64,000 nucleotides of DNA. It comes from Paenibacillus sp. 481 (GTDB lineage Bacteria > Bacillota > Bacilli > Paenibacillales > Paenibacillaceae). The position numbers and the translations under genes are program-made. The notes beneath the pieces were generated by a model. That model was not told where the DNA came from, did not search any database, and saw only the letters and a list, made by a program, of their open reading frames with translations. Numbering within the stretch: the stretch's first letter is position 1; every line of letters begins with the position of its first letter. This document shows, piece after piece, positions 23,820 to 40,600 of the stretch. Where the stretch lies: positions 2,026,001-2,090,000 of the forward strand of contig NZ_CP075175.1 of assembly GCF_021223605.1 (NCBI RefSeq). Direction: 5' to 3'.

Positions 23820-23896
23820 AAACGTAACCTCCCATTAATATAGGTAATTACATTACTCATTGAGATCGTTACAGTGATGGGGGATTGAGTTCATTA

Positions 23897-23930
23897 GTGG
23901 GCAGTGACAGCCTTCGTTGACACTACCCAC
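23897..23930 (-). terminator. Hairpin between the paralogous secreted genes
   Basis: GTGGG-AGTG and CACT-CCCAC arms around 14 bases. The minus-strand arm GGGTAGTGTC is the same as in the hairpin after the other paralogue, so the duplication includes the 3' structure. It has no T-run. Confidence 0.5.
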
Positions 23931-24034
23931 AACGTAAATAACATTGTTATTCTTGATGGATAAAGTGTCTGTCAGCTAAGGGGCATTTAAGCGATTGTTA
24001 GTAGACCTGACAATTCTAGATGAGGGGGGAAACC

Positions 24035-24439
24035 TTACGGATTAAGATGCACTTGTTGATGGCCGGAAATATAGAGTTCCTGTGAAGAGCTCCCTATTAA
24101 TTGTCCACCAAATTTGGGATGTCCAATGTATGCGCCAACCCAAACTCTGTATTTGCCAAAAGGCAAGCCTGCTTTATTGAAAAAATCTCTAGGGTGGCGA
24201 ACTACTTCTTCTGGAATTTCATGTTTACCAGTGTTCACTTCCCTCAAGGAAACTTGGTAATGAGTAGCTCTAAACTTCTTGTTCCAAGAGATGTACAAAC
24301 TCCCTCTTTGCTGTTGTACATCTTCAACCTTAGCTGCCTTAACAGTCGGTTTTGGCGCTTCCTGTGCAAAAGCAGCACCTGTTCCGATAGATAGCAACAT
24401 CGCTACCGAAAGGAGTGAAAAAGTAAAACGTTTCAACAT
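24035..24439 (-). CDS. Small secreted protein, tandem paralogue 2
   Basis: A 134-residue protein with a signal peptide almost identical to paralogue 1 (MLKRFTFSLLSVAMLLSIG) and the same FnIII-like core: LYISWNKKFRATHYQVS, FGKYRVWVGAYIGHPKFGG. The ATG at 24439 is chosen by alignment to the paralogue and its GGGAGGT site. The ATG six bases upstream is too close to that site. The C-terminal 20 residues differ between the two, which is where they may have specialised. Confidence 0.75.
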   Translation of the reverse strand: MLKRFTFSLLSVAMLLSIGTGAAFAQEAPKPTVKAAKVEDVQQQRGSLYISWNKKFRATHYQVSLREVNTGKHEIPEEVVRHPRDFFNKAGLPFGKYRVWVGAYIGHPKFGGQLIGSSSQELYISGHQQVHLNP

Positions 24440-24728
24440 GAACATTACCTCCCATAAATATGAAATGTACTACATTTATCATTATACATATAATTTAAAA
24501 AATTGGTATAAAATAATCAATTGTCTCAATTGTTTTATTTTTTAGAATTTCAATCAACTTATGGGTATGATATTACTTTGTGTAAAATAAAGAATCGAGT
24601 CCCTATTTATCATTAGGTGAACGGTAGCCCGTTGGAGTAATAGCATTTTTTTAAAAAGTGTCCATCCTACGCGTTACAGTTTAGAATGATAGAGCAGTAA
24701 ACTTGACGTTATTATTTCATGTATCAAG

Positions 24729-24793: not shown

Positions 24794-27700
24794 CTATTTC
24801 GAACCTTCTTTCTTCACAGTTTCACTCTGCATATCTAACAGCGGGTACACTTTCTCTCCAATACGGACTTTGCTATCCTTAGGTATGTCGACACCTGTTC
24901 CAAGCTGGAATGTGACCGAATAAGGATATGCCTCTAAATTAGGCTGCGCCTGTCCATCCTGCGGCGTTTGCAGCGTTTGTGGCTTCTCGCCTTCTCCTAC
25001 TGCCGCTTTAGAATTGTTGTTCGCTACATTACTTTCATTACGTTCATTATTTTGAGTACTACCTGCAGTTTCATTGTTAGCCGTACTTGTACTGCTATTT
25101 TCACCGTCTTGGCTGCCCTTATTTGCTTTAACCGGGTTATCATCGGACTTCGCATCACACATCGATACCGGATTAAACGCGCCAAATGCCTCATTTGTAC
25201 CATCAGGCTTTTCTATCACAATACTAGTCGCGCTAAAAGATTGACACACTTGCTCGCTTGCGAAGCGGAACACCATTTGCATCTTTCCGCCTTTGCCCGC
25301 AGCGTTGCCAGTACTGCCTGCCTTCCCGCTTCCCTGCACCTGCTCCACATACACCAAAGGTTCTTCGGCCCCAGCTTTCGGATCTTTAGATGTGGCTCCT
25401 GCCTCTTTCGAAGCTTCAGTATCTACAGGAGTTAACGCAGGAACGTCGACCTGTGCAACCGGCCCCTTATCCTTATTAATAACACCCGCGGCCTGTAGCC
25501 CATAATAAGCCCCCGCACCAATTACGGCAACGGATACGGAGATGATGCTACCTAGCAGAATCGATCTTTTGCTGCGTGAAAAAAATCGGATCAGCGGTGA
25601 TGACAACTCCAACTTGGCCTTGTCATACACCACTTTAAGCGTAGGAACCGCTGTGTTGAAATATTGCTTGCGATTAGACCGTTTCTTAAACGCATCCCGA
25701 TCATGCTTCTTAAAATAAGTTAAAATGGCCGCTGCATAAGTTGGATGCAGCTTTCTTCCTTGCGTAAAGTCAGGATGCTTGGCCGACCAATTGATAAACG
25801 CATACACGGTTTGCTTCTCTTTTGCATGCTTGTGCACAAAATGAAGCAATGCTCCGTACTCAATCAGCATGTCGTCATTCGCAATCCGATAATAGGCCAG
25901 CACCATGCGCTCGAATTGAGTTGGCTCAACTTCATGCTGCAACCAAGAGCGCCCTAATTGCTGCACACTGTCCATTTCCATCGACGTAATGCCGTCGAAT
26001 ACCGTTTCATCAGGGGCACGCTCACTAAACCAGCGATAAGCGGATTGCATGACCGCTGCCTTCGATTTCAGCCGTTGCTCAAGCGGCGCCACTAATGCAC
26101 TAACTTCGCCTGCTTGCTTGAACAAATCCATTTGCAGCAACTGTTCTTTCGTCAACGAGTCCAGTTTCACATTCGTTAACAACATTAAACTTACCGTCAC
26201 GTAAAAGGAATTGAACAGTTCATCGCTTAGCGAAGCATGACGCAACTTCCCTAACTGCTCACGTGCCTCATTCACTGCCGCAACTAAATCCACTTCCCGT
26301 TCAAGCTTGTCCACCAACTGCCCTTTTGCCAAGTCCGCAAAAGCAGGCAGCCTCAGCACCTGTGGGTGAATTCTACTCCACTCCTGCACCGAATTAATGA
26401 CATCCCTTGCTCGTGGAGCTGCTTGAAACTTCGTCAATATATACGGCTCAAACAATGTGGCCGCCAGCCCACTGTCGAGCAATTTATCAAAGAAAGCCTT
26501 ACTAAGCGCTGGATTCTGCTCAACTATTTCATAAAAAGCTGAGACACCTGTTCCCGTCTTGCGACTCGGCGAATTAGACGATGCAAACGAAGATGATGTT
26601 GAAAATGCAGGTGCGGACGCATTATTAATGGTGCGAATCATACATTCGACCAACGCACCTTCGATGCCGCTCCCAGCAAGTCGATAGTAATCTTTAAAGC
26701 ACTCAACAAGCGACGGCTCCGGTACGGCACCTAACTTAACAGCGTCGAACTCGCGCTTAAACAACGCGAGAAACAACTCATTCAGCCTTCTTTTGCCTAC
26801 GAGTGCTCCTTGTGGTGCCAAATAATCGAGCAAGCTCCGCAGAACCGTACTTTTATTCGCCTCATAACTAGCGATACCGCCCTCTTCAATTTGGTAGAGG
26901 ACAGCTAGTTCATGATAGCTGGTCAGCGCTGATTTACGCGGCAGTTCCATATCCGCCAGCATCAACTCGGCAAACGAATAGAAGCTCTCTGCCCGCTCCA
27001 GACGACCAAGATTGCTCCATGCGAAATCCAAATACGGCTGGGCCGACCAATCCAACTCGACATTCGTTACCCGCCCCGTAGCGATATCGAAAGTATAATC
27101 CTTCTCGATATTGCGGTCGTTAGGGCGCAAGCTGCCCTTCTCCACGAACATCAAATGAATCGCTTTTTTACTTTGCGGCTCATTCGCATAAGTCATAAAC
27201 CCGAGCTGCCGTCGAATCGCATGCGGCAAACATGCATACAGCACCTCGAGCAGCAGCTTTGCTCGTTCCGATACGTGCTCAATCGGAACGTCCAGCGCGA
27301 CGTACACTTTTTTCTTGCCTGCGACAGCAGACATAACCGCAAACAGCAATTGCTTGAACAGCTTCTCGTGGATGTTCAATTCTGTAAGTAGCGCCTTGTG
27401 AGATGAGGCTGCAAGCTGCTTCCCGACCACAGGCAAGCGTTCCAGCTCAGCAAGCTCCATGCCTCTTTCAATATCGTAGCTATCCGTAAAGGAGGCGTTC
27501 AGCCACGACGGGTAGTTCGCCACAATTTCCGCGGACTGCTCCGCAGAAATGATATAGTTGTGCGCAAAAAAGGCACTGCGCAAACCTGTAAAGTCCGCCG
27601 CCTGATACTGACTGACCCCGAGCACCGTTTCCCCGCTATCGGTATGAAACAAATGCATCGCTGCGGGATATAACGCAGCATCCTTCTCGCCACGCACAGT

Positions 27701-27874
27701 CAGTTCAGTCGGGGCATCGTATACGCAGAACGGGTGAATTACCTTTTTAATAAACGAGCTATCCAGCCCTCTCGATTTGGCAATCGTATCGTAACCTTCG
27801 GTAGAGCGAAAAATACCTCTTCTCTCCCGCGTATACATTTGCTGCTGAATCGGCTTGGGATGAAATGAACTCAC
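24794..27874 (-). CDS. GAP1-N2-like GTPase-associated protein, membrane-anchored
   Basis: A 1026-residue protein, last in the operon. The N-terminus (QQQMYTRERRGIFRSTEGYD, then TIAKSRGLD) resembles the type-2 N-terminal domain of GTPase-associated protein 1 (GAP1-N2). That domain was defined by its pairing with double-GTPases in predicted NTP-dependent conflict systems. A long helical middle region follows. One TM helix lies near residues 770-795 (SIISVSVAVIGAGAYYGLQ), after which a Ser/Asn/Gly/Lys-rich tail of about 230 residues would be outside the cell. The start is GTG, overlapping the GTPase stop by four bases (GTGA), so translation is coupled. The partnership with the GTPase is strongly supported by context; the biochemical role is inferred. 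Confidence 0.7.
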   Translation of the reverse strand: MSSFHPKPIQQQMYTRERRGIFRSTEGYDTIAKSRGLDSSFIKKVIHPFCVYDAPTELTVRGEKDAALYPAAMHLFHTDSGETVLGVSQYQAADFTGLRSAFFAHNYIISAEQSAEIVANYPSWLNASFTDSYDIERGMELAELERLPVVGKQLAASSHKALLTELNIHEKLFKQLLFAVMSAVAGKKKVYVALDVPIEHVSERAKLLLEVLYACLPHAIRRQLGFMTYANEPQSKKAIHLMFVEKGSLRPNDRNIEKDYTFDIATGRVTNVELDWSAQPYLDFAWSNLGRLERAESFYSFAELMLADMELPRKSALTSYHELAVLYQIEEGGIASYEANKSTVLRSLLDYLAPQGALVGKRRLNELFLALFKREFDAVKLGAVPEPSLVECFKDYYRLAGSGIEGALVECMIRTINNASAPAFSTSSSFASSNSPSRKTGTGVSAFYEIVEQNPALSKAFFDKLLDSGLAATLFEPYILTKFQAAPRARDVINSVQEWSRIHPQVLRLPAFADLAKGQLVDKLEREVDLVAAVNEAREQLGKLRHASLSDELFNSFYVTVSLMLLTNVKLDSLTKEQLLQMDLFKQAGEVSALVAPLEQRLKSKAAVMQSAYRWFSERAPDETVFDGITSMEMDSVQQLGRSWLQHEVEPTQFERMVLAYYRIANDDMLIEYGALLHFVHKHAKEKQTVYAFINWSAKHPDFTQGRKLHPTYAAAILTYFKKHDRDAFKKRSNRKQYFNTAVPTLKVVYDKAKLELSSPLIRFFSRSKRSILLGSIISVSVAVIGAGAYYGLQAAGVINKDKGPVAQVDVPALTPVDTEASKEAGATSKDPKAGAEEPLVYVEQVQGSGKAGSTGNAAGKGGKMQMVFRFASEQVCQSFSATSIVIEKPDGTNEAFGAFNPVSMCDAKSDDNPVKANKGSQDGENSSTSTANNETAGSTQNNERNESNVANNNSKAAVGEGEKPQTLQTPQDGQAQPNLEAYPYSVTFQLGTGVDIPKDSKVRIGEKVYPLLDMQSETVKKEGSK

Positions 27875-29133
27875 TGTTCCTCTCTCCCTTCGATATAATT
27901 CAATTTATAAAGCAACCAAATGAACGGCTCGTCAACCCGAATCGGGCTAACTACCCCTTGCAGCTTCTGGTTGACCGGATTGCTACCGAGTGCAGACACC
28001 GCAAAATAGGCCGTATCCGAAAAATACACATCCATCGTGCCTTTGAACGGGCGGTCTACTTTCTCTATAAAACGACGAACCTCACCATCAATGTTCTCAA
28101 ATTCGGTCAAATCCAAATATTTTCGGTGCACCATATTGTGAAAAATGTTGCTGTTCGGCTTAATATATTCGCCATCTTCATCTTTCAATGAATGCAGCAT
28201 ATCGCTTTTCGCCAGCACGACCGCTGTCGGAATGTCCGTCTTCGTCTTGTCCTCGTATGCGATGAAATCGCCGAACATCGTTAGCACAACGTCACGCGGC
28301 TCATCGTATTGCGACACCCACTCGCCTGGCTTGTCGCCGTATTTCATACGCAGCTTCTCGCGAATCGAGCGGATTTGCAGCGGATCAACCATAAATAAAA
28401 TGCCCGCTGAGTTTTTAATATGCTGACCGTGCAGCCCGAGATAGTCCTGATCGACCATCCCCTCACCAGCGACGTCAAAGAACACTAGCGTAAGCGGCGG
28501 CTTCGACTCATCTTTAAACACGAATTGGAAAATGAAAGGCTCCTGCATTTTCTCTTTTTGCGTCGAAGCGAGCAAATCGCCCCGCTCAAATAGCGGTTCT
28601 TCGTACATCGTACGGAATTTGCGGCTAATTTCCGCGTTCAGCGGCATGCACGCTGCATCGAAATGGTCCGCAGTCATGTGCTGCAACGTATGAATTAAGG
28701 ACGTCATGTACACCGATTTCCCGACTTGCGACGCTCCGATAATCGAAATAATATTGCTCGGGACCTTGCCCGCAGTTACAGGCAGCTCGTTATGGCATTT
28801 CGGACACAGTCTGCGTCGCGTCATGACGCCATAGCGGTCATTCAGTCCGATTAATACGTTATCCGAATACATACGATGCTCTTCCGGTATATCATGCGGC
28901 TGAATAATCGCTTCAATATCGTAAACGGTATCGAGACCAAAACGCTCCCGATACCGGTTTAATAGCTCATCCTCGCCCAAGGCGTAATTTTCATCGTCCT
29001 CCCGATGGTGGGCCGCACGAAAGACGACATCCTCCGGGGAAAATTTACTGAAGCAGTACGGACACACAATATCGTAAAATAGCGGCTTCGGTGCCGCCTT
29101 CGGTTTTTTTTTGAACAAATCAAAAATGCCCAT
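27871..29133 (-). CDS. Zinc-ribbon P-loop GTPase (DO-GTPase2-like)
   Basis: A 420-residue protein. A split zinc ribbon is formed by C24/C27 (VCPYC) and C110/C113 (LCPKC). The GTPase core follows: Walker A GASQVGKS at 133-140, Walker B with switch II FFDVAGEG at 219-225, and the guanine-specificity motif AKSD at 308-311. This layout fits the DO-GTPase class of the TRAFAC GTPases that co-occur with GAP1 proteins. It is cytoplasmic, with no TM. GGAGG precedes the ATG by eight bases; the gene lies 13 bases after the 213-residue gene and overlaps the GAP1-like gene. It is likely the nucleotide-driven switch of the apparatus. Confidence 0.85.
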   Translation of the reverse strand: MGIFDLFKKKPKAAPKPLFYDIVCPYCFSKFSPEDVVFRAAHHREDDENYALGEDELLNRYRERFGLDTVYDIEAIIQPHDIPEEHRMYSDNVLIGLNDRYGVMTRRRLCPKCHNELPVTAGKVPSNIISIIGASQVGKSVYMTSLIHTLQHMTADHFDAACMPLNAEISRKFRTMYEEPLFERGDLLASTQKEKMQEPFIFQFVFKDESKPPLTLVFFDVAGEGMVDQDYLGLHGQHIKNSAGILFMVDPLQIRSIREKLRMKYGDKPGEWVSQYDEPRDVVLTMFGDFIAYEDKTKTDIPTAVVLAKSDMLHSLKDEDGEYIKPNSNIFHNMVHRKYLDLTEFENIDGEVRRFIEKVDRPFKGTMDVYFSDTAYFAVSALGSNPVNQKLQGVVSPIRVDEPFIWLLYKLNYIEGREEQ

Positions 29134-29146
29134 CTCATTAGCCTCC

Positions 29147-29788
29147 CTATTCCGGTACTAACTCGTACATATGCCCATATCGACGACCATCGGTAAAAAA
29201 TAAGCGCACATAATCGTCCTTGCCTACTTCAATCACAGGCAGCACATTGCGACCAGCTGCAAAATCCCCCACGAACGGATACATCGTTCCGTCCTCTTTG
29301 TTCAGCGGCGAACCGCCTTGTTTTTTGACATAACAGAGCACGTCCTTGGAAAAAGGCACTTCCGCCTTCACCTCGATTTGCACCGTCTTGTATTTGCGAA
29401 ACAAGCTGCTTTTATGCCGAATGGAAAAATAAATTTTGGCCTTGCCTGTGCTCACTAGCAGCTGATTCTCGCCGTGTTGCTGACGAATAAGCACGGTGTC
29501 TGCAATCGTTGCCGAATTGGCACAGGCATAAATCGTGTACACGTACCGCCCGATACCTTCAATTCGGTCATGGTAACCGTTATTCGCTTTGTATTCATCT
29601 TTCGTATATAGCTTCATCTGAGAGGCAGAAGTCGGCTCGCTCCTAACAGCATCCGCATCTGCTTTATGAATAAATACGGCCTGCACACCGTCCGGCCAGC
29701 GCCAGCGCAGTGTGCAGCGATCGTCATCAATTTGGTGCACGCAATCGGAAATAACGGGCGAAGTGGAATCCGCTTCGATGAACTGCAT
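29147..29788 (-). CDS. Beta-rich protein of the tubulin/GTPase operon, unknown function
   Basis: A 213-residue protein with no signal peptide or TM and a predicted all-beta character. The N-terminal 90 residues (DRCTLRWRWPDGVQAVFIH, then GIGRYVYTIYACA) look like a fibronectin-III-like sandwich. The second half (IYFSIRHKSSLFRKYKTVQIEV) may be another. I do not recognise a named family. GGGGAGG precedes the ATG and the gaps to both neighbours are under 25 bases, so it is an integral operon member. It may be an adaptor between the vWA protein and the GTPase. Confidence 0.7.
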   Translation of the reverse strand: MQFIEADSTSPVISDCVHQIDDDRCTLRWRWPDGVQAVFIHKADADAVRSEPTSASQMKLYTKDEYKANNGYHDRIEGIGRYVYTIYACANSATIADTVLIRQQHGENQLLVSTGKAKIYFSIRHKSSLFRKYKTVQIEVKAEVPFSKDVLCYVKKQGGSPLNKEDGTMYPFVGDFAAGRNVLPVIEVGKDDYVRLFFTDGRRYGHMYELVPE

Positions 29789-29810
29789 AAGTCGTTAATC
29801 CTCCCCGTCT

Positions 29811-31091
29811 TTAAAATCCTCTGCTTGTGTTATCCGTTGGCCGCTCGGCAAAGCCATCTCCTGCACGCCCGGCACGACCAGCCCGATTTCTAGCATCGTA
29901 TAGCTGACCGCTTTCCTTAATCGGGACAATAATCGTGAACATGGCGATCACACCTGCTAAAATAAGGTCTGCTAACAAGCGCGTTACACCGTCCGTAAAC
30001 CATTGCCCTGACAAGCCCGCTTCCAGCAGCAAGCCAGCGATAAGTCCAGCCACCACGCCGCCGATCGCAAAGCTTCTAGCAAGAAAGCGATTGTCGAACA
30101 CGAGGCCAAGTGCCACACCGATTGCCGCGCCAATGAGAACAAGCGCTACAACGCGTAGTACTGCATAGTAGGTGCTATCACTCAACGGACCTTTCCGCTC
30201 GGTAATAAGCGAGCGATCATCGATGCTGTCATAAATTTTTTGGAATATGAACGACAAATCTTCGGTATTGGCAACATCGTAATAACGTCCGCCCGTCTGT
30301 TCTGCGATGTCTCGCAATAGATTCGAGCCTTGCGCATCTACTAGACTAAGCCCAATCGTATTCGCTGCGATGCCCTGCTCGATATATGGAGACAACACTT
30401 TGTTGCGATCGAGCTGGCTAAACCCATCTGACAGCAAAATGACCATTTTACCGCGTCCAGATTCATCATGATCCCGAATGTGATCCATAGCTTCTGTCAT
30501 AGCGAGACCAATGTCTGTACCATCTGTCGTTTTCTTAATGGAATCTATCTTCCCCATTACACTATCCTTGGTAGCTTGATCCGATAATTGCACAAACGGC
30601 TGTAACAGTTCAGCCTGACTATTAAACGTGATGATAGCTACTCTCTTATCTGAATCCATCTCACCTACTAATTGTTTAGCCGCCTTATACCGATCGTCTC
30701 GCGGATCGGTCTTTTCCATGCTGCCCGAATTGTCGATCACGAGCACAATATCTTTAACAGATTTCACACTGCCAAGATTGACTTTGTATACAAAATCGAG
30801 CGCCAGCCCGAGTACAAACAGCATTACGAGTGTCGCTGGTATAAGCAGCTTCCAAGAAGCGGCCACATACCGCTGTCGCCATGATTGACCGTTGAGCTGT
30901 GGCTTGATCATTTCAGCCACAAGGCAAGACAGGCCGATACACAAGGCAAGAATGCCGAAGTACAGGCCTGTCAGCACGATACCCGGCAGCTCACCCGTAT
31001 ACATTTGCAGCACAATTTCACCCGCAATAAAGCCAATAAAGCCTCCGATCAAGCTGAACAACACTAAGAGCAAATTTATTTTTCGCTGCAT
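29811..31091 (-). CDS. Membrane vWA-domain protein
   Basis: A 426-residue protein. Two or three N-terminal TM helices (to about residue 100) are followed by a von Willebrand factor A domain with an intact MIDAS: DNSGS at 120-124, the Thr in TDGTDIGLAM, and the Asp in ILLSDGFS. Three or four further TM helices come after residue 310 (LIGAAIGVALGLVF, GGVVAGLIAGLLLEAG, LILAGVIAMFTIIVP). A Ring-like Arg/Gly tail ends it. The vWA domain's side of the membrane depends on the helix count. With MIDAS intact it should bind partners in a Mg-dependent way. It shows BatA/BatB-like layout but without the neighbouring MoxR ATPase typical of those operons. Confidence 0.85.
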   Translation of the reverse strand: MQRKINLLLVLFSLIGGFIGFIAGEIVLQMYTGELPGIVLTGLYFGILALCIGLSCLVAEMIKPQLNGQSWRQRYVAASWKLLIPATLVMLFVLGLALDFVYKVNLGSVKSVKDIVLVIDNSGSMEKTDPRDDRYKAAKQLVGEMDSDKRVAIITFNSQAELLQPFVQLSDQATKDSVMGKIDSIKKTTDGTDIGLAMTEAMDHIRDHDESGRGKMVILLSDGFSQLDRNKVLSPYIEQGIAANTIGLSLVDAQGSNLLRDIAEQTGGRYYDVANTEDLSFIFQKIYDSIDDRSLITERKGPLSDSTYYAVLRVVALVLIGAAIGVALGLVFDNRFLARSFAIGGVVAGLIAGLLLEAGLSGQWFTDGVTRLLADLILAGVIAMFTIIVPIKESGQLYDARNRAGRAGRAGDGFAERPTDNTSRGF

Positions 31092-31192
31092 GTTGATTGC
31101 ATCCTTTCACAAGGTATCCTATTGTTATGACGTTTCAAAAAGTTCCCTGAACGTTTAAGTAGAAATGAAGAACTAGGTAGCCACTCACGACA

Positions 31193-33754
31193 TTAGCGCA
31201 GCTCAGGCAGTCTACTCTGTTCCATACCATGAAACTCGTAACCGCTCGCCACATAGTGCTCATAGTACACTTTACCGTTCCGGTAATACATCAGATCCTC
31301 GAGATGGAAGCCACCCATTAAATTGAGCTTCTCCACGCCACTGCTCCGCTTTTCATGCACGCAGCCCAACTTGTAAATGCGTGATGTCTCGTCCGCACTT
31401 CGGGCATAGCGGATAAACTCGCTCGTATGATCGCCGAAGAAATACTTTTCCTCATAGCGATGCTCATGCGTGTAATCAAAGAGCCGAATATTAATTTCCG
31501 CGTTGTGCTCCAAAGTGGCGTACAGCTTTTTAAACAGCTCCGCCTTCGACAGCACTTGCTTGTTGCTATAATCGACCGCCACATTGGCCCGTCGCAACAG
31601 CTCCTCTTCGAACGTCTGCTGAAACGGCTCAGCCGTGAGTAGTTCATGACGGCACACGTGCAGCAATCGCTGGCACAGTGCTGCAATTCCTTGGTCTAGC
31701 AGCCGCGGAATATGACCGATATACCGTTCTTCGAAGAAAGCCGTAGCGCCTCGCTTAGCCTCGAACTCGTGCATAACGGTTTCGGTAACCCGTCCGTAAT
31801 ATTCTAAAATGTTCTGTCCGATATAATCGTCAGCCATACGAATGCTGTCCGTGGCTGCTCGTTGCAGTTGTTCCTCCAACTGCTCCAACTGCTGCACCTG
31901 ACGTTTGCAGTCCGCATGCAAATGCGCAAGCTCCAACTCATAACGACGATGCAGCTTAAGTTCCGTTTCTAAGCGTAATATTTCAAGCTTATGGCGATAC
32001 ACCTTATCGAAGAAGCAGCGAATAAAGCTGCGCAAATTGTGCTTATCCATAAGTGGCAATCGTTGAAATGACTGATCCTCGACCCGCTCCACATAGAGCT
32101 GCTCAAGGTCTATCTTCAACGCTTCCAGCTCCTTGGCTATTTGCTGAATCGTTAAGCGCAGCTCTTTGAGCACGCTATCCTTCTCATTTGCTTCATCTGT
32201 CCATTGATAGATGTGGAAAAAGCTAAGCTGCGGCTGGTTAGTCATATGCTGCTGAACAGCACCACGCAATTGCTCGGCAGCAGCAAATTGCTCCACGTAT
32301 TGCTCCGCTTCGCGCTCATAGTTGCTGCGGAAATATACGCGGCAGCCATCTCCGAATAGCGCGTCTTCCGCCTCACGCAAAGACATCCGCTTCAGCTTGC
32401 TGTAGCTCATATCGTGCGTCATAATTCCGCTCATATCGCCCAGCTTCCCTTCATCAGGGACAGCAGTGGCTGTGCGTCCTGCCATGGCCGCCGCATCAAG
32501 TCCGAAGAAGGTCAGCTTCTCTTTCGCTGACCACGGAAGCTCGGCTTGCATGCGCAGCAGCAATTGGCGATAGAAATGATATAGCACCGTCAACGCGATC
32601 GATTCATTCGGCCGCTTTACTTTGGAAAACCCAGCGGACACATAGCCTTGACGGCCCGATTCCGTCATGATGTTATTTTTGAACGACGTATTATTGTAAC
32701 TGTTCAAGTTCAACTCATGAGCCGCATCTTTCAACTTGCGGTTTTTCAGCAAGCTGACGTGACAAATGATTTCATAGTTGTCGTCCATGTCACGAAATGA
32801 TGAAATACCGCGTTCATTTTTGTCTGATAGCAAATAGACAAGGTCGAACAACGGCGAAGCCGCATGGGTTACCGGAATCGAGATGCCATCTTCCGTCACC
32901 TGCAAGCGGGCGGAAAAGGTATAATCCGCACGCTGCATGCCATCTAGCTCTCGCAAAAAAGCGACGCCTACCGAGCTGGAGTAGCCAAACGTCTCGACCT
33001 GCTCGCGCTCACTAATTAACGTAAACAAATCCATTTGCACCGATTTGAACGACTGATTGAAAATCGCTTTCGCCAGCAGCGATATTTCGGGAACGAACAC
33101 ATTAAGCGGATCATCGACCCGCGTAATGATGGACAAATGAATGCGATCAAACGACGAATACAATCGGCCGTAATCCGCAATCTGATGACTAACTTGCCGC
33201 AGCATACGATTCAACTCAACGAGCAATCGTTCTTCGCGGTAAAAAGCGTCATACACCTCTTTGCGCAACGTCTTCCCGTTCTCTGCATCTGAGCGTGCAG
33301 GCACAGGAAGAGCAAGGGTACTTAGCCGACTTAGCCCTTGCTGCCTGCCAGTCTCGCGGGTCTCCTGGGTCTCCCCTTGTGAAACAGAGGAGACCGCTGA
33401 ACCTGCTGCGACTGCCGAATCTACTGAGGCTGTTGAGATCGTCGAGTCTGCTGAGACTGTCGAAATCTCCGAGCTCTTCGAGAACGTCGAGTTCTTCGGG
33501 TTAGTTGAGTCCGCTGAGACAGCCGAGCCTGTAGCTGCTTGTGAACCGATATGAACGTACATCACACCATCACTGTTATCCCACTTCTTGTCGTTAATCT
33601 GGATGATCGGGTCAATCGCATCGACCGTCTTATCTCCGATAAACAAAAATACAGCCGGATAATGTATGCTGCTCTGATCGTCGCCCTGATCGGTCAACTT
33701 CTCTTCCGCAGCCGCATATTCAGTTGCGAATGGTTCCAACAATGCATTCATCAT
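31193..33754 (-). CDS. Large unknown protein encoded directly after the tubulin-like gene
   Basis: An 853-residue cytoplasmic protein with no recognised catalytic motif. The start follows the tubulin-like stop without a gap, implying coupled translation and near-equal amounts. Residues about 72-130 are an Ala/Ser/Thr/Val low-complexity stretch (STVSADSTISTASVDSAVAA). Residues about 175-340 (FDRIHLSIITRVDDPLNVFV, LFDLVYLLSDKNERG) are alpha/beta and might be a degenerate tubulin-like fold without the nucleotide loop. Residues about 520-680 are long, Leu/Glu/Gln-rich coiled coils. It may be the obligate partner of the tubulin-like protein. Two ATG codons stand in tandem at 33754 and 33751. Confidence 0.7.
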   Translation of the reverse strand: MMNALLEPFATEYAAAEEKLTDQGDDQSSIHYPAVFLFIGDKTVDAIDPIIQINDKKWDNSDGVMYVHIGSQAATGSAVSADSTNPKNSTFSKSSEISTVSADSTISTASVDSAVAAGSAVSSVSQGETQETRETGRQQGLSRLSTLALPVPARSDAENGKTLRKEVYDAFYREERLLVELNRMLRQVSHQIADYGRLYSSFDRIHLSIITRVDDPLNVFVPEISLLAKAIFNQSFKSVQMDLFTLISEREQVETFGYSSSVGVAFLRELDGMQRADYTFSARLQVTEDGISIPVTHAASPLFDLVYLLSDKNERGISSFRDMDDNYEIICHVSLLKNRKLKDAAHELNLNSYNNTSFKNNIMTESGRQGYVSAGFSKVKRPNESIALTVLYHFYRQLLLRMQAELPWSAKEKLTFFGLDAAAMAGRTATAVPDEGKLGDMSGIMTHDMSYSKLKRMSLREAEDALFGDGCRVYFRSNYEREAEQYVEQFAAAEQLRGAVQQHMTNQPQLSFFHIYQWTDEANEKDSVLKELRLTIQQIAKELEALKIDLEQLYVERVEDQSFQRLPLMDKHNLRSFIRCFFDKVYRHKLEILRLETELKLHRRYELELAHLHADCKRQVQQLEQLEEQLQRAATDSIRMADDYIGQNILEYYGRVTETVMHEFEAKRGATAFFEERYIGHIPRLLDQGIAALCQRLLHVCRHELLTAEPFQQTFEEELLRRANVAVDYSNKQVLSKAELFKKLYATLEHNAEINIRLFDYTHEHRYEEKYFFGDHTSEFIRYARSADETSRIYKLGCVHEKRSSGVEKLNLMGGFHLEDLMYYRNGKVYYEHYVASGYEFHGMEQSRLPELR

Positions 33755-36700
33755 TTATTTCAACTTTCTGCGAATAGCGTTTAATTTCGTAACTAATTGC
33801 TTGTAAAATTGATACGCTTCCTCACCGTTAGCCAACTCGACTTTCTCGTACTCCAAGCTGTCGCGCGCTTCGAGGAACGCCGAGTACAGCTCTTCCAGCT
33901 TCTCCAAGAGCGGCGTAACGTCTTCAGACGCCGTCAACTCGCCAGCACGTCGTGTCGCCTTGCGCATAAGCGTGCTGCGGCTTTTTTCATCCAAAGCACG
34001 GAACTGCTCGTACACCTCGAACTCCACGTAACTACGAATTTTCATCAGATTCGCAAACGGCTCCCATGCCTCTTCCTCTGGATCGCGATCGTAGACGAAT
34101 AGCGCACCTTTTTTGCAAATCGTCCCTGTATACAATGCTTCGATAAATTGATCCTGCAACTTCTCCTCATCCTGATGCAAGCTAAGCACTTGCTCCAATT
34201 CAGCCGCCTTCGCACGAATCGCTTCATACTTCGCCAACTCTTCACGAACACGGTCAATCAATTCAGGAGTACGGATCAAGTTCTCCTTCGCCAACTCTTC
34301 ATTAATGCTGCCAAAAATATCTTTCGTCGCTTCTGGCTCAAGCCCATCCGTCAGCATACGCTTCAAGTCGATAAATGCCCGCTTCACCTCGCCCAAATTC
34401 GGCTTCGATGCTTGCAGCTGCATATCGTAGCCACCAAGCACTTTTGCCAGATCAAATGGCTTCGTAAATTTAACTTCAAAGCGATTGCTCGTGTTGTGAT
34501 CTACGCCTTTTTCCACAATGACTTTCAACTCAAGTGCCTTGTCGAATGCTGCCCGAATACGCCCATTGTAATCTTGGACACGCGAATTCACATACGTATC
34601 TCCCCACGATTTTTGTGGAATCGGTGACGGCAAATACGTCCAGTTCACTTTGTCCGTCTGCACAAGATGTCGTCCAATGCCTTCCTTGTCCAAAATCGTC
34701 CGCTCGTAGCTTTCCTCGTACACTTTAAGCGGTGTATAGACGAACAACGGCACGCCGTTTTTCGTATTCAACCAGAAAATACGGTTCTTCACGTTGCTCT
34801 CTTTAATCGTAAAGTGAGATTTACCTACCGAATTGTTCTGATAGTTGCGAATCCCCTTCAAAATGCTAGGTGCCTGCAACGGTACCGATACGAAGCCCCA
34901 TGACGGGAAGTACAAGTTGCCGGAGCTGTTACTTAAATGGAATACCGGAACAGCTTCGTCATCCAGCTTGCTCGCAATGTTGCGCTCGACAAACTTTTCA
35001 ATCGACTCATCGTGACCGAATTTCATAATTAAGAACTCTTCCATCGATTGCGTAATTAAGTCGCCAAACTTATCGGTCAAAAATTCGGAAATCGAGCTAA
35101 CGATGTCGATATCCTGCTCTTTAATCCATTGATCCGAGTGTTCCAACAGTTCAGTAGCAAAATCACGAATCAGATCGTCGACTTCTTTTTGCTCCATCAC
35201 TTTGCTAATCGTTTTGGCGATGTCCGGCACACTGACGATATTCCAGTAATACGTGCGATTGCCTTTATGGTCGGTCTGTTCATCACCGTTAATCAAAATG
35301 TCGCCATTCTTATCGAAGATCGAATTAAGGGCATTCAATATTTCGGTATACACACTATAAATCCGGTTGTTCTCTCTATTTAGCAGCGCATGCAAATCTT
35401 CGTAGAACTCGATCATTTGCTCGGTACGTTCCAAATCCGCATGCAACCAATATTCGTTTATTTTTGCATCGATATAGAAGTTCTTCTTCTTATCCTTTGA
35501 CACAAATGCACTCTTCGCATCCCCCAGCTTCTGCATCGCTTGCTCTTGCGCCGTTTCGATGTCGCGTGGGATATGGTGCAGATTTTCCTTCAGCGTTTCA
35601 ATGTACGAGAGCAGCATCTTCAGCAAGCAGAACCCTTTTTCCGTATGAATAAGCCGTGATACGTAGAACGGTCCTTGCTCGGGATGAAGGAACATACGGC
35701 GAATTTGGTCGGTAAACTGTCCGACAATTTCACCTGGCAACTGTTTCTTCGCTTTAATGTACTCCTCGCGGGCACGCGCCAAGAAGCTCTGCTCCAGCTC
35801 GGTGTCCATGTTGACGACTTGCATTTTCACCACGTTGTTGTAGCTTAAGCGCTCGCTATTTTCATAGCCCGGTAACGGCTCTGGGACGCGTGATTCAAAC
35901 GTTTTGACCATCGTATCGAGATCAAGGCCCAGCTTGCGGGCGAACTTCTCAACATCGTCCTGAGTCGGTGCTTTTTCGAACATTTTGTCCATTTTGCTAA
36001 ACAGGCGATAGCCCAAATATGTCGTCATCTCTTCGATCGGCAGCACAGCCGAAGAAGCACCGATGATGTTGTACTCATAGTTGGCTGGGTACGCCTTATT
36101 CATTTGCGCGATATTCGTCCGAATGTTGCTGATATAGTCGTGAATTGCGAACTCTTCACCAGACTGCTTCTCCTCGCTGGAAATGAAGTTCGTGATGTTC
36201 TCAGCCGTTACGTTCATGCAATAGTCATAGGCGTTCTCAAGCAGCTTGCCTTCGGTATTCGTCGCCGAAATGAGATGGCATAAGTTGAATGGCGCTAACG
36301 GTGAATTAACCGTCAAAATATTGCCGTAACGCTGCTGGAACCGCTCACCACGGCTGTCTACGTTCATCCAGTAGTCCAGCTCTTTCAATGCAGCATAGCC
36401 GTTCTTCTTAATATACTCGCGCGTATGCTCGCTCAAGCTGCGGTTCGATAAGTTCACGTCCGGCGTAAACAAATAGCCGAGTGTGTTGACGCGGTCAATG
36501 CCCGCCGAACCGTGGTCGCGCTCAATAATACCTCGTACAATGTACGAAATGTCGAGGAAGCAGCCACTACCTGTTCCGCCAGATAAACCTGTCAGCAGGA
36601 ACACCATCAGCTTCTTGTTCGTGCCGACCGACAACGTTTTAATTTTTTTGTCGATCGCCTGTACGACTTGATTGATCTTTGTGAACAACAGCAAGCGGCC

Positions 36701-37144
36701 CGCTTGGCGGACACCTGCCGCACCGTTCATGCCGTCCGTAATGCTGAGCTCTGGCGACAGCCAATCCGTAATGTACGGCTCCAAAATGCTGCGGTTCTGC
36801 AGCAGCCCGCCGATCTCGGCATTGGAGAGCAGCACAAATTCATTTAACGGGTCGAGTCCGATCCCTTTATATCGCTTGCCGCGATCCTGCTCATTCGTTT
36901 CAAACGCTAGAAACTCTACATTAGCTGGCTTATCAAGCTTCTTTTTCGAAATCGGATCTTGTGGAAGCTTAAAGCGGCGGTTAATTTGATATTTTAAGCG
37001 CAGCAGCGCATCGATCCCTGTGCCGCCTAGCCCGATAATAAGTATCGGGTTGTCGATCGTATCGACACGAATCTTTTCACTGACAATGCCACCGCCAAGT
37101 GATACATCCAACTGTTGAATATGTTCGCGCACTACCGGTTTCAT
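33755..37144 (-). CDS. Tubulin/FtsZ-like GTPase-fold protein (Tubulin_2 type)
   Basis: An 1129-residue protein. The N-terminal third has the tubulin-fold nucleotide elements: GLGGTG at 38-43 as the first glycine loop and TGLSGGTGSG at 185-194, the FtsZ/tubulin signature GGTGSG. Between them FLAFETNEQD fits the strand-loop expected. The remaining 750 residues are mixed alpha/beta with coiled-coil stretches and are far larger than FtsZ (about 380), TubZ or tubulin. A Tubulin_2-like protein of this size would be a nucleotide-binding scaffold or polymer. AGGAGG precedes the ATG. It lies 79 bases after the first vWA gene and abuts the 853-residue gene. Confidence 0.85.
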   Translation of the reverse strand: MKPVVREHIQQLDVSLGGGIVSEKIRVDTIDNPILIIGLGGTGIDALLRLKYQINRRFKLPQDPISKKKLDKPANVEFLAFETNEQDRGKRYKGIGLDPLNEFVLLSNAEIGGLLQNRSILEPYITDWLSPELSITDGMNGAAGVRQAGRLLLFTKINQVVQAIDKKIKTLSVGTNKKLMVFLLTGLSGGTGSGCFLDISYIVRGIIERDHGSAGIDRVNTLGYLFTPDVNLSNRSLSEHTREYIKKNGYAALKELDYWMNVDSRGERFQQRYGNILTVNSPLAPFNLCHLISATNTEGKLLENAYDYCMNVTAENITNFISSEEKQSGEEFAIHDYISNIRTNIAQMNKAYPANYEYNIIGASSAVLPIEEMTTYLGYRLFSKMDKMFEKAPTQDDVEKFARKLGLDLDTMVKTFESRVPEPLPGYENSERLSYNNVVKMQVVNMDTELEQSFLARAREEYIKAKKQLPGEIVGQFTDQIRRMFLHPEQGPFYVSRLIHTEKGFCLLKMLLSYIETLKENLHHIPRDIETAQEQAMQKLGDAKSAFVSKDKKKNFYIDAKINEYWLHADLERTEQMIEFYEDLHALLNRENNRIYSVYTEILNALNSIFDKNGDILINGDEQTDHKGNRTYYWNIVSVPDIAKTISKVMEQKEVDDLIRDFATELLEHSDQWIKEQDIDIVSSISEFLTDKFGDLITQSMEEFLIMKFGHDESIEKFVERNIASKLDDEAVPVFHLSNSSGNLYFPSWGFVSVPLQAPSILKGIRNYQNNSVGKSHFTIKESNVKNRIFWLNTKNGVPLFVYTPLKVYEESYERTILDKEGIGRHLVQTDKVNWTYLPSPIPQKSWGDTYVNSRVQDYNGRIRAAFDKALELKVIVEKGVDHNTSNRFEVKFTKPFDLAKVLGGYDMQLQASKPNLGEVKRAFIDLKRMLTDGLEPEATKDIFGSINEELAKENLIRTPELIDRVREELAKYEAIRAKAAELEQVLSLHQDEEKLQDQFIEALYTGTICKKGALFVYDRDPEEEAWEPFANLMKIRSYVEFEVYEQFRALDEKSRSTLMRKATRRAGELTASEDVTPLLEKLEELYSAFLEARDSLEYEKVELANGEEAYQFYKQLVTKLNAIRRKLK

Positions 37145-37223
37145 TTCATTTCCTCCTAGGCTGTAAGTTCTAACAACTCAATCCATTCCATTCACTGTAT
37201 GACACGCTGTATTACACGCTAAT

Positions 37224-39068
37224 TTACACGAGATATTCGATCAAAATAGTCTTATCCACGTTACGCAGCGGAACCGTAATTCGATCGCCGCTCTTCAGTT
37301 CATAGCCGCTGCTCGTGTCGATTGCACGACCTGACTTCTCAATCGTACTGTCCGCGCCGCTGCGCAGCATGATGCGGTCGTTCTTGCTTGGAACGAATAC
37401 AATCTTGTCGGTTTCCTTCAATTCCGCAGCAAGTTGAAGCACTTGATGGAGATTGAATTTGCCTTTAAAGCCCGTCAACTTCCTATATTGCGGATGCGTC
37501 TTTTCGCCTGTATTTTCATCACGGATTTCAATGACAAGTTGACCAACGAAGCCCCGTGTTGTCTTTTTGTACGCTGCATATGCGAAATATGCGGCAACAG
37601 CAACCACGATAGCTATTCCTGTCCCGATCACAACCGTTCCGACAGGAAAGCCTTCGTCTGACTCGGATGCCGAGCCTGAACCTGATTTGCTCGATCCCGC
37701 TGTTCCGTTGCCCGATTTGGCACTAATCTTGACTGGCTTCGTTTCCCGATAGAAGCTCTGCTCCTCGGCTCTTACTTTTAATTCATAGTCATGCTTCTCT
37801 GCAATTTGGTACGTTCCGGCAAAATGATCACCGTCATGCTTCAGCTTTATTTCTTCGACGTCACCTGTATCCACATCTTTAACATGCAGCACAGCATTCA
37901 TATTTTTGTAAAGCTCCGAGTTCTGTACCTTCTGCCCGTTGCTTACTAACTGAGCGCGAATGTCAATCTCGTCGCCTTGCTTATATGTTTTCGCTGGAAT
38001 CGGCTCCATCGTCAATTCCATGTCGTAGTTAAATACAAGATTAATATCAATATTGTCTTGGGAAACTCCTTTGACTTCCAACTTCCAATCGCCTTGCTCT
38101 GGTTGAAGCAGCTTCAATAAGCTGTAGCTCTTCGACTTCGCCAGCATCACATCTTGGGAAGGAATCGTCCTGCTCTTACCCGCAGGGTCAGTCAACCTAA
38201 CCTCAACAGGCTTCGCTGACATAATCGAAATGTTCGCTTCCAGTACGTTAGCATTGGGTACGTTAATCGTCACTTCTTGAAAGGAGCCATTTCCTTTCAT
38301 CGATTGGATCGGTACCATTTTAAGCTTAAGATGGCTAGCGAAAATTTCACTCAATATACGCGGCAAGTCGTCCGCTGAATCCGTAATAAACGATTTTGCC
38401 CCTGTCTTGTTGGCGATATCGGCCAATACGTTCTTATTTAATTTCCCATCGGCATTGAGCCCGATCGTATACACCGGAATGCCTTGCTTTTTCGCATCCG
38501 CTACCGCTTGGCTTAACTCCTCGTCGGATTGTTCCTGCGTTCGGGAAGATTTTTTGTTCAAATAATTGTTTCCATCAGCCAATAAGACAATCATCGGTTC
38601 ATGAGCAGGATCAGCGCCACGTTTAAGCAGCTTTACCGCTTCCTTAACCCCCACCGCATTATCGGTGTACGCACCGCGATTAAGCTGATCAATAAATTGC
38701 TTCAGCTCTTGCTTATCCCCAGCTGATTGAATTTCTAGCAGCGCCTTTTCACGTTCGATCTTATCGGTGTATGCGACAATCCCGACTCTGTCCCCCTGTG
38801 TGGACAACATGTCGATAAACATCTTCATCGCCTCGTTGCCGATTTTGTTGGCATCGCTGGTGTTCATCGAATTGCTGACATCCACGACGAGCATAGCGTC
38901 AATCTTGGAAGATTGCTGCGTAGCAGCGCTTGCTACTGGTAGGCTGCCGATAAGTGGCGCCATAAACATTGAAATGATAAGCAGCAGCTGAACGATAATG
39001 TATGCTGGTGCTTTTCGTGATTTTTGTGATTGTGCTGTCATCTGCGCTCTCCCCGCTCTTCGAAGCAT
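37224..39068 (-). CDS. Exported vWA-domain protein with C-terminal membrane anchor and cytoplasmic tail
   Basis: A 614-residue protein, first in the operon. A signal peptide or signal anchor (residues 21-49, ending VASAA) is followed by a vWA domain with MIDAS DVSNS at 63-67, the Thr in GAYTDNAVGV and Asp in VLLADGNNYL. About 200 residues of beta-rich spacer precede a TM helix near 475-497 (VVIGTGIAIVVAVAAYFAYA). The last 115 residues are cytoplasmic and beta-rich (LRSGADSTIEKSGRAIDTSS resembles an FHA-like edge but lacks a clear phosphothreonine site). It could pass a surface signal to the tubulin-like and GTPase components. AAAGGAG lies eight bases before the ATG. Confidence 0.88.
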   Translation of the reverse strand: MLRRAGRAQMTAQSQKSRKAPAYIIVQLLLIISMFMAPLIGSLPVASAATQQSSKIDAMLVVDVSNSMNTSDANKIGNEAMKMFIDMLSTQGDRVGIVAYTDKIEREKALLEIQSAGDKQELKQFIDQLNRGAYTDNAVGVKEAVKLLKRGADPAHEPMIVLLADGNNYLNKKSSRTQEQSDEELSQAVADAKKQGIPVYTIGLNADGKLNKNVLADIANKTGAKSFITDSADDLPRILSEIFASHLKLKMVPIQSMKGNGSFQEVTINVPNANVLEANISIMSAKPVEVRLTDPAGKSRTIPSQDVMLAKSKSYSLLKLLQPEQGDWKLEVKGVSQDNIDINLVFNYDMELTMEPIPAKTYKQGDEIDIRAQLVSNGQKVQNSELYKNMNAVLHVKDVDTGDVEEIKLKHDGDHFAGTYQIAEKHDYELKVRAEEQSFYRETKPVKISAKSGNGTAGSSKSGSGSASESDEGFPVGTVVIGTGIAIVVAVAAYFAYAAYKKTTRGFVGQLVIEIRDENTGEKTHPQYRKLTGFKGKFNLHQVLQLAAELKETDKIVFVPSKNDRIMLRSGADSTIEKSGRAIDTSSGYELKSGDRITVPLRNVDKTILIEYLV

Positions 39069-39190
39069 ATAAATACTCCTTTTTATAGGTTGATAGTTAA
39101 CTCGTTGTTTCTCGGTCGAACAATGCCGATGCCAGTACTGCTACTGAATACTAGTAGTACGAGTACTACTACTGATACCGACCCGACAAA

Positions 39191-39220
39191 ATTCTAACAA
39201 AATCTTTTAAGAAATGACAA
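39191..39220 (-). promoter_or_regulatory. Probable sigma-A promoter of the seven-gene operon
   Basis: On the minus strand TTGTCA (39220-39215) and TAGAAT (39196-39191) are 18 bases apart, about 120 bases before the first vWA gene. No other promoter is evident inside the operon except possibly the 101-base gap at 31092-31192. Confidence 0.6.
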
Positions 39221-39254
39221 TATAATTACTAATTCTACCATACCTATGACGGTG

Positions 39255-39263
39255 TGCTATAAT
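39255..39263 (+). promoter_or_regulatory. Extended -10 promoter of the divergent small operon
   Basis: TGCTATAAT, an extended -10 element, 109 bases before the 49-residue gene. The -35 position shows no consensus. It lies about 40 bases from the divergent promoter, so one regulator could govern both. Confidence 0.5.
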
Positions 39264-39371
39264 GTTAACCTAATAACTTGAACATTATTTACGATTATGG
39301 TTAGCTAGCTGTTAAGTAGTAGCTAGGCTATACTACCTACTTATACAATCAGCAAAAGGAAGGTTCCCTCT

Positions 39372-39521
39372 ATGATTGGATACGGATTTTTGAGTATTTT
39401 GTTTCTTTTTGTCGTCGTAAAGCTGATTATTTCTTATTACCATCGCAAGCATACGCCAGCGCCAGAAGAAATAGATCGTCGTCTGCTTGCCATGCTGAAC
39501 CCAGAGCGTGATTACAAATGA
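39372..39521 (+). CDS. 49-residue single-pass membrane protein
   Basis: A short gene reading MIGYGFLSILFLFVVVKLII, then a basic stop-transfer (YYHRKH) and a soluble tail ending LAMLNPERDYK. AAGGAAGG precedes the ATG. Its TGA overlaps the ATG of the next gene (ATGA), so the two are translationally coupled. One TM helix with the tail inside is predicted. It is easy to miss because of its length. The conserved-looking coupling and context argue that it is real. Confidence 0.75.
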   Translation: MIGYGFLSILFLFVVVKLIISYYHRKHTPAPEEIDRRLLAMLNPERDYK

Positions 39522-40441
39522 AAAAACAACCTGTACATTTTAAGCCCTATCATATAACGAGATATGCGTACCAAAAGTTAAAAACTTGCAACAAGTGTAC
39601 TCAGTTCACGGTGCTGCAAGAGCAGCAATGTACGTTTTGCGGCAAATCGGCACTCACCTCTATTGAGAAGAAGGCTGCCCGCCTTGCGAACCGCTCCAGA
39701 TGGACAACTAGACTTATCGCGACTGTGTTGGCACTAGGTAGTGTCGTATTTAGCGACACACGAGAGCAAGCTGTCATCTGCGCACTGGCAGGAGCTCTGC
39801 TTGTGACCCTGCTCTGGCTATTCCAGCGGAAGAACGCGGCGATTGACGTTCATCGTCACCTCGACGCGCTCATCCACCGTGAGCAGAGCCTCATTATGAA
39901 CGGCTTATATCGCAATTGGGAAACATCAATTGCCTCATGGGAACACGATAAGCAGCTCACGTATGAGCAGCTGCGCGAAATTGCTACGCTAATACGAAAC
40001 GACAAAATCCGGTTGCAGCAGCTCGCCCTGCTCCACTTCTTTATCTTGCGTAAAGATATGGATTTGCAGCTGGACTCGCTCATGATAAATCACTATGACC
40101 CTCTGCTGGTCGATTACATTAGCGAAGTAGCCAAGGTTAAACGTGAACTTATTAAAGATGCGACGTTCCGTTACACCGTGTCCTTCGAGCCCGAAATTCT
40201 CGGCATGACGCGCGGCGTTGACAGCTTAGCAGCCATCGCTGGCGCAGCTGTTCGCTCGAAGCACTATGTGCTGGCGTACCCGAACTTTGTACGGCGCTAC
40301 GCGCACAAGTTGCCGAAGGACCGCTTCCTGCGGCTGTATCGGATGATGGTGCAATATCCGCATGAGCCTTGGGGCGGCTTGTTCGATGAGGTTCATCGCA
40401 TCCAACGTGAACAGTATCAATGGGACGCTGACTTTCAATAA
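39518..40441 (+). CDS. Zinc-ribbon membrane protein divergent from the tubulin/GTPase operon
   Basis: A 307-residue protein. An N-terminal zinc ribbon is formed by C24/C27 (TCNKC) and C38/C41 (QCTFC). Two TM helices lie near residues 63-78 and 84-101 (VICALAGALLVTLLWLF). About 200 helical cytoplasmic residues follow, with no recognised motif. The zinc ribbon echoes that of the GTPase on the other side of the shared promoter region, so it may be another part of the same membrane apparatus. No family name can be given. Confidence 0.75.
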   Translation: MKKQPVHFKPYHITRYAYQKLKTCNKCTQFTVLQEQQCTFCGKSALTSIEKKAARLANRSRWTTRLIATVLALGSVVFSDTREQAVICALAGALLVTLLWLFQRKNAAIDVHRHLDALIHREQSLIMNGLYRNWETSIASWEHDKQLTYEQLREIATLIRNDKIRLQQLALLHFFILRKDMDLQLDSLMINHYDPLLVDYISEVAKVKRELIKDATFRYTVSFEPEILGMTRGVDSLAAIAGAAVRSKHYVLAYPNFVRRYAHKLPKDRFLRLYRMMVQYPHEPWGGLFDEVHRIQREQYQWDADFQ

Positions 40442-40561
40442 AAGTCCATTCCATAGGACGAGCATCTGGAACGCAACCCCTTAGTAATTTAAATTCCATT
40501 TTATAGGAATTTATTGTATTATACGTTTGCATAGCACATAACCGAGTAGTTCCGCACAGCA

Positions 40562-40600
40562 TAGCCCAACTTGGCTCTAACAAGTTGGGCTATTTTTATT
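40562..40600 (+). terminator. Rho-independent terminator
   Basis: Twelve-bp perfect stem (TAGCCCAACTTG with CAAGTTGGGCTA) followed by TTTTTATT. It ends the zinc-ribbon operon 120 bases after its stop. Confidence 0.85.

Follow-up and report, generated by a model that had tools for sequence, protein, structure and literature searches.

Gene content of the locus

We examined a 64,000-nucleotide stretch of the Paenibacillus sp. 481 genome (RefSeq assembly GCF_021223605.1, contig NZ_CP075175.1, positions 2,026,001 to 2,090,000 of the forward strand; hereafter the window, in which all coordinates are counted) that carries a cassette predicted to encode two tubulin-like proteins, a DO-GTPase, a GAP1 protein, two vWA proteins and further membrane proteins. 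Seven minus-strand genes at 24794-39068 and a divergent pair at 39372-40441, open frames throughout, make up the cassette, and its eight larger genes are, 5' to 3' on the window, GAP1, DO-GTPase, the gene for a 213-residue protein, vWA-TM (TM, transmembrane), TUB2, TUB1, vWA-secreted and the divergent ZNRTM.

24794..27874, minus strand: GAP1, with GAP1-N2 and GAP1-M domains (Pfam), one TM helix (TM scan) and a polar, low-complexity C-terminal tail
27871..29133, minus strand: DO-GTPase, with an N-terminal zinc ribbon, P-loop GASQVGKS, DVAGEG and AKSD; Pfam DO-GTPase2
29147..29788, minus strand: 213-residue protein, beta-rich, by position a possible FNIII-type component
29811..31091, minus strand: vWA-TM, six predicted TM helices with the vWA domain between TM3 and TM4; Pfam VWA E 2.2e-22
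31193..33754, minus strand: TUB2, putative GTP-dead tubulin homologue, the predicted tubulin fold broken by a helical/coiled-coil insert
33755..37144, minus strand: TUB1, Tubulin_2/FtsZl1, T1 GLGGTG and T4 GGTGSG intact, an insert similar to that of TUB2 and a further C-terminal region that starts at about residue 854
37224..39068, minus strand: vWA-secreted, with a signal-like N-terminal TM segment, vWA and a C-terminal TM segment at 478-496 (Pfam, TM scan)
39372..39521, plus strand: 49-residue single-TM microprotein, 4-nucleotide overlap with the next gene (at 39518)
39518..40441, plus strand: ZNRTM, zinc-ribbon membrane protein with cysteines C24, C27, C38 and C41

The open reading frames (ORFs), motifs and families that a first-pass annotation had read from the letters were borne out by the ORF list and by Pfam, which returned GAP1-N2/GAP1-M, DO-GTPase2 (at its cut-off), two VWA proteins and Tubulin_2; NCBIfam added only general vWA models, below their cut-offs, for the cassette proteins. 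The same annotation had placed most of the seven minus-strand genes 0-25 bases apart or overlapping, which held for four of the six junctions (0-22 bases or overlapping) and failed for the other two (79 and 101 bases). Its description of the locus as one membrane-associated unit agrees with the TM scan and with the conserved order given below.

Two predicted tubulins, one apparently without the GTP loop

To place these proteins we drew on 40 regions from genomes of the order, of which 36 hold the system and 4 were chosen for short or weak PF13809 (Tubulin_2) matches, and on 80 named loci, the best 80 of at least 460, a choice by which that sample leans to close relatives (G and L numbers are our handles for genomes and loci). 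TUB1 (1129 residues) matched Tubulin_2 at E 1.5e-74 and 251.8 bits (cut-off 27), and its predicted model is a tubulin fold whose tubulin matches cover both ends around the insert, as the proposal of a giant tubulin-like protein had called for. GLGGTG and GGTGSG recur in 116 of 117 loci, the exception being the broken frame of L058. Across the 5.69-Mb, one-contig genome PF13809 matched the TUB1 and TUB2 genes only, and the closest named relatives among the matches listed, where entries for the genome of the window itself or for one very close to it may be missing, were P. apiarius and P. profundus, at 88% identity over TUB1. Alignments comprised 35 of 36 TUB2 sequences (A1, L055 left out) and 36 of 37 TUB1 sequences with three outgroups (A2, L058 left out), with 31 of 35 rows in A3 and 32 of 37 in A4.

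The adjoining gene had been annotated as encoding an 853-residue coiled-coil protein, a description that missed the second tubulin of the locus: TUB2 looks like a tubulin homologue by its sub-cut-off Pfam Tubulin_2 match and its predicted fold. Its profile is collinear with that of TUB1 over 706 columns (hhalign), and TUB1 matched it at E 2.9e-4 while the control profiles of GAP1 and VWASEC gave E 0.023 and 0.14; in the predicted model the tubulin match reaches the C-terminus (Foldseek, VIA re-alignment), with a low-confidence, variable insert at residues 75-138. Taking the Pfam match, the profile match, Foldseek and VIA together, we read TUB2 as what looks like a tubulin homologue by fold that stands outside the GTP-binding membership of Tubulin_2. 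At the T4 place, a glycine string occurs in none of the 116 rows with letters, and the typical stretch is instead T-R-V-D-D-P-L-N-V, with D-P at positions 5-6 of nine in 113 of 116. At the T1 place all 114 rows with letters have G and 107 of them D, and a glycine string lies elsewhere, in the insert, in two of 113 full-length TUB2 proteins.

The two tubulins also travel together. With four PF13809 matches outside the system set aside, TUB1 and TUB2 occupy the identical 135 of 246 genomes of the order; none of the 246 carries TUB2 alone, and the TUB1 family stands alone only in the four loci without the system. In the window the tub2 and tub1 genes abut with zero spacer. An apparent tubulin fold minus the loop in a protein that was never found alone points to a mixed polymer, or to a dimer in which a single face handles nucleotide.

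Several points weigh against this reading of the pair. The TUB2 match to Tubulin_2 (E 1.8e-4, 21.3 bits) falls below the cut-off of 27, the probability of its profile match to TUB1 is only 40%, and whole-TUB2 Foldseek searches are weak (best E 5.7e-3, none at or below 1e-3), with VIA re-aligning only entries that Foldseek had ranked. The confidence of the TUB1 model is itself moderate (predicted template modelling score 0.42), the apparent loss of the GTP site in TUB2 is read off the sequence, and the co-occurrence of TUB1 and TUB2 is no proof of contact.

Farther afield, the distant firmicute G520 encodes a 599-residue protein (L079:5914-7710(-)) with GLGGAG, a degenerate T4-like stretch and no Pfam family, adjoining an FtsZl1 protein (L079:7706-10513) and a vWA gene. 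From this case, a degenerate second tubulin may be distributed more widely than the order.

Conservation of the cassette

Of the 36 system loci in this order of bacteria, 34 have all eight larger genes, arranged identically in order and strand; of the other two, L060 is cut by a contig end, and in L068 no ZNRTM gene is seen. Among the 34, frames are broken in L055 and L058, the GAP1 frame is short in L045, and a tandem of two GAP1 frames occurs in both L066 and L067. Named loci repeat the pattern in 77 of 80, and in the other three (L194, L202 and L203, all contig-cut) the genes reached are still in order, so that the neighbourhoods of related genomes are conserved and not scattered. Beside the invariant order, the broken-frame cassettes L055 and L058, together with genome G226, suggest decay in family f6, and at L068:1536-2609(-) a 357-residue frame without a profile match lies at the expected place of ZNRTM.

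PF13809 occurs in 139 of the 246 genomes, in 137 of them over the cut-off. Four of these loci (L069-L072, in G033, G136, G175 and G213, the first two over the cut-off) have no other system genes and were left out of the system counts. The cassette occurs as one locus per genome, has the same parts across two families and is absent from 111 of the 246. A draw of 398 genomes from the phylum yielded 14 with a PF13809 match, seven being the window's own and same-family genomes and the other seven lying outside the class, three of them strong (G312, G463 and G520) and four weak. The weak Tubulin_2 matches outside the system in G175, G213, G291 and G595 belong to shorter frames of about 440-460 residues, possibly TubZ-like.

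Putative switch and sensor proteins and the divergent arm

GAP1, previously described as a GAP1-N2-like membrane protein, carries both GAP1-N2 and GAP1-M (PF20013, 151.3 bits; PF20014, 104.2 bits; E 2.1e-44 and 4.7e-30) and a single predicted TM helix at residues 771-789, followed by the polar C-terminal extension. The zinc-ribbon GTPase is likewise as first read: it matches DO-GTPase2 (PF19993) at E 4.3e-6 and 27.0 bits, exactly the cut-off of 27, its three motif patterns recur in 113, 114 and 114 of 114 loci, the Walker B glutamate pattern DV?.GE in 114 of 114, and CxxC pairs of the zinc ribbon are seen by eye. Both vWA proteins have the D-x-S-x-S metal ion-dependent adhesion site attributed to them, one being secreted with a TM anchor and the other six-TM, and the motif is kept in 114 of 114 loci for vWA-TM and 114 of 116 for vWA-secreted. 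The latter has weak Ig-like Pfam matches (MG2, Hemicentin GBD) and none to YtkA. The 213-residue protein is present in 114 of 117 loci, the missing three being contigs that end before the gene, and Pfam gave no match for any of 32 members.

On the divergent side, the annotated pair of membrane-protein genes is real, consisting of the 49-residue one-TM ORF and the zinc-ribbon/TM gene that it overlaps. ZNRTM was found in 113 of 117 loci; C27, C38 and C41 are invariant in 31 rows, and Pfam returned only scattered weak matches, mostly zinc ribbons, to one to three of 31 members each. A microprotein profile built from 14 sequences matched next to the ZNRTM gene in 109 of 113 loci (E 2.1e-24 to 0.016), 60 with the 4-nucleotide overlap. 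In L127, L133 and L137 the microprotein overlaps a long ZNRTM frame, which we took as an over-extended start, and at L153:6612-7742(-) both lie in one continuous frame, so that with these four special cases counted in it accompanies ZNRTM in 113 of 113 loci. Constraint on the microprotein is modest (median ratio of nonsynonymous to synonymous differences, pN/pS, 0.68, below 1 in 98% of 838 pairs), and cut-offs on ORF length could overlook it. An extra gene on the same strand as ZNRTM occurs in 65 of 113 loci, usually immediately downstream of ZNRTM and within 400 bases in 60 of the 65; its product, absent from the window, has about 590 residues, one TM helix and a TPR-like appearance by eye (e.g., L142:3854-5629(-)).

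Evolution and empty sites

Trees cover 26-30 of 36 genomes, since an rpoB locus was retained for 30. The correlation among the trees of the eight larger genes (r 0.87-0.97) exceeds that with rpoB (0.67-0.80; 26 genomes), and the TUB1 tree separates the two families. Plain vertical inheritance was rejected for its partial conflict with rpoB, seven genes sharing 5-8 of 12-17 supported splits and ZNRTM 4 of 14; because rpoB alone makes a weak species tree, transfers were left uncounted. A recent mobile island was rejected as well: the cassette genes include neither an integrase nor a transposase, and TUB1 had no match in 72,556 plasmid and 50,697 phage records.

No upstream-flank gene is common to the window and any of 77 other loci; among these 78, 128 of 134 pairs at TUB1 identity of at least 95% share an upstream-flank gene, as against 0 of 822 pairs at 75-80%. 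Eight of nine 40-60-kb contexts share only scattered similarity with the window. In G243, of the same genus (L034, flanks L082 and L083), five genes that flank the cassette in the window, on one side or the other, recur with side and strand swapped, which suggests that its cassette lies in the same neighbourhood, inverted around the cassette.

Comparison within genus g5 revealed an empty site. In G095 and G234 the cassette is flanked by a small kinase-like gene on one side and, on the other, by a reductase-like and then an epimerase-like gene (names by eye), and the kinase-like to reductase-like stretch of G095, about 18.5 kb, holds cassette genes only (frames of at least 100 residues). The same three genes are adjacent in cassette-free G038, G077, G091 and G119, four of the seven cassette-free g5 genomes searched, and also in G048, whose cassette is on another contig. 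For the remaining three, the searches found two marker genes about 6.5 kb apart in G143, only a distant, 41% identical kinase-like match in G131, and no epimerase match at the set limit in G145. The cassette occupies different sites within one genus and is present or absent as a unit; it is accessory, gained or lost as a whole, gain and loss not being distinguishable here. On either side of the cassette in G095, some 38 kb from each other, lie frames that share almost the same N-terminus and look transposase-like by eye (L207:426-1895; end of L208).

Relation to published systems

What had been put forward as new, a DO-GTPase/GAP1 pair joined with a large tubulin and a pair of vWA proteins, has already been published for Firmicutes (Kaur et al. 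2020, eLife, PMC7159879) and in part since 2010 (Makarova & Koonin 2010, Biol Direct, PMC2875224); what follows holds for the text consulted of these papers. In the firmicute tubulin theme of Kaur et al., GAP1-N2 goes with a pair each of tubulin-domain and vWA genes, and the features shared with the window are the two tubulin-domain genes, the two vWA genes (one multi-TM), the zinc-ribbon DO-GTPase and a GAP1-N2 protein with a polar C-terminal extension. The theme also has a YtkA domain on one vWA protein, for which ours gave only the weak MG2 and Hemicentin GBD matches, and an FNIII-repeat component, in whose place stands the beta-rich 213-residue protein as a possible counterpart. The text consulted makes no mention of the second tubulin's lost GTP loop, the 49-residue TM protein with ZNRTM, the TPR-like gene or the empty sites.

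The FtsZl1 operons of Makarova & Koonin likewise have a large FtsZ-like protein with coiled coil, a vWA protein, a GTPase (in some cases fused to a cysteine-rich DnaJ-like domain) and uncharacterised membrane proteins. FtsZl1 was described as not reliably alignable beyond H5, whereas here tubulin matches span both model ends around the insert; the FtsZl1 families A1-A2 and B1-B9 may include TUB2. A 2023 FtsZ/tubulin phylogeny, in the part consulted, set Tubulin_2 proteins aside. Judged by titles and abstract openings, no paper among the matches listed reports an experiment on the Tubulin_2 (FtsZl1) system, known from sequence since 2010, and none concerns a second tubulin of these loci that is GTP-dead; this covers passages from the main text of the key papers, and we claim no priority. 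Compared with BtubA/BtubB and alpha/beta tubulin heterodimers, one partner here lacks the T4 glycine loop and the candidate pair is known from genes and predicted models, while the obligate co-occurrence of two tubulins is a BtubA/B-like trait.

Proposed working and alternatives

We think it somewhat probable that the cassette is the Paenibacillus member of the published firmicute GAP1-N2/FtsZl1 tubulin system, in which envelope sensing would act through a DO-GTPase/GAP1 switch on a TUB1/TUB2 polymer. Gene content and order, the predicted tubulin folds, the absence of the T4 loop, strict co-occurrence and presence or absence at the empty site were computed here; from this anatomy we infer sensing, switch, hetero-assembly and output. 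The secreted vWA protein, the polar tail of GAP1 and the six-TM vWA protein (its vWA probably outside) would sense the condition of the envelope or a ligand outside the cell, with the zinc-ribbon DO-GTPase and GAP1 as a putative cytoplasmic switch. The output would be a two-subunit tubulin polymer assembling at the membrane, in which TUB1 would bind GTP and TUB2 would be its constant partner; with the GTP loop of TUB2 gone, just one of the two interfaces would handle nucleotide. The microprotein and ZNRTM may be constant anchors or regulators. Evolutionary rates fit such a sensor/switch scheme, since the GTP-binding parts are slow and the sensor-like parts fast: median tree distances relative to rpoB are 3.1x for TUB1 and 3.65x for DO-GTPase, as against 12.6x for ZNRTM and 15.5x for GAP1, the fastest-evolving of the eight (mean pairwise identity 0.32); TUB2 stands at 10.4x.

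In a bolder form, which we hold tentatively, Paenibacillaceae would possess a bacterial tubulin heterodimer with one subunit permanently devoid of a nucleotide site, forming an asymmetric two-subunit polymer of separate evolutionary origin from alpha/beta tubulin, wired across the membrane to DO-GTPase/GAP1 and vWA sensors, with the 49-residue TM microprotein as a core part and the whole moving as one accessory cassette. If the GTP-dead tubulin must join the GTP-binding one, this would show a route to asymmetric tubulin dimers outside eukaryotes.

What the cassette is for could be answered in two ways, and its present and absent sites in a single genus allow defence and envelope roles to be compared. 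That it is a standing cytoskeletal device for envelope remodelling and homeostasis, serving membrane vesicles, shape or wall repair and not defence, as proposed by Makarova & Koonin (PMC2875224), is a serious possibility, if short of a probable one. The secreted vWA and several TM proteins suit such a role, as does carriage by 135 of 246 sampled genomes, and three further points lean towards it: TUB1 and DO-GTPase are strongly constrained (mean pairwise identity 0.72 and 0.71), there is a single locus per genome, and matches are absent from plasmid and phage records. Against it stand the 111 genomes that lack the cassette and the intact empty site in congeners, from which it follows that the cassette is not essential there.

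Such accessory gain and loss leans instead to a conflict response, as predicted by Kaur et al. (PMC7159879), in which the tubulin assembly would be an anti-phage or inter-bacterial effector that sequesters invader parts or disturbs the membrane past a GTPase threshold. The cassette is present or absent as a whole, both at a clean empty site and at sites that differ within one genus, and this agrees with the account, as do the fast sensor-like parts beside slower GTP-binding proteins. We nevertheless find it rather doubtful: PADLOC (2023 library, from which the type may be missing) gave no match for the eight proteins, their Pfam matches include no toxin-like or nuclease domain, TUB1 is without plasmid or phage matches, and there is a single locus per genome with the same parts in two families.

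It is unlikely that TUB2 is a mere structural scaffold or cap without a mixed polymer, since its much faster evolution than TUB1 and its variable, low-confidence insert, which would suit that role, are set against strict co-occurrence, abutting genes and a tubulin match that extends to the C-terminus.

Candidate expression signals and neighbouring genes

Around the cassette, two candidate expression signals were found, each by consensus match only:

39191..39220, minus strand: promoter-like site TTGTCA-18-TAGAAT, upstream of the seven-gene operon
40561..40593, plus strand: terminator-like hairpin with a 13-bp stem, after the divergent pair

The promoter-like site has 10 of 12 consensus matches and is the best of 17, as against a shuffle mean of 22.4 sites. 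Sigma-factor consensus patterns in the divergent intergenic region of 35 loci gave none clearly above shuffles, the loosest, sigF/G-like, occurring in 24 of 35 (mean 18.2). Adjoining the cassette at 23406-24445 (minus strand) is a tandem of two similar secreted-looking proteins of 136-137 residues, and at 43998-47198 (minus strand) lies the gene for a 1066-residue secreted-looking protein with several similar repeats, whose N-terminus resembles, by eye, copper amine oxidase N-domains.

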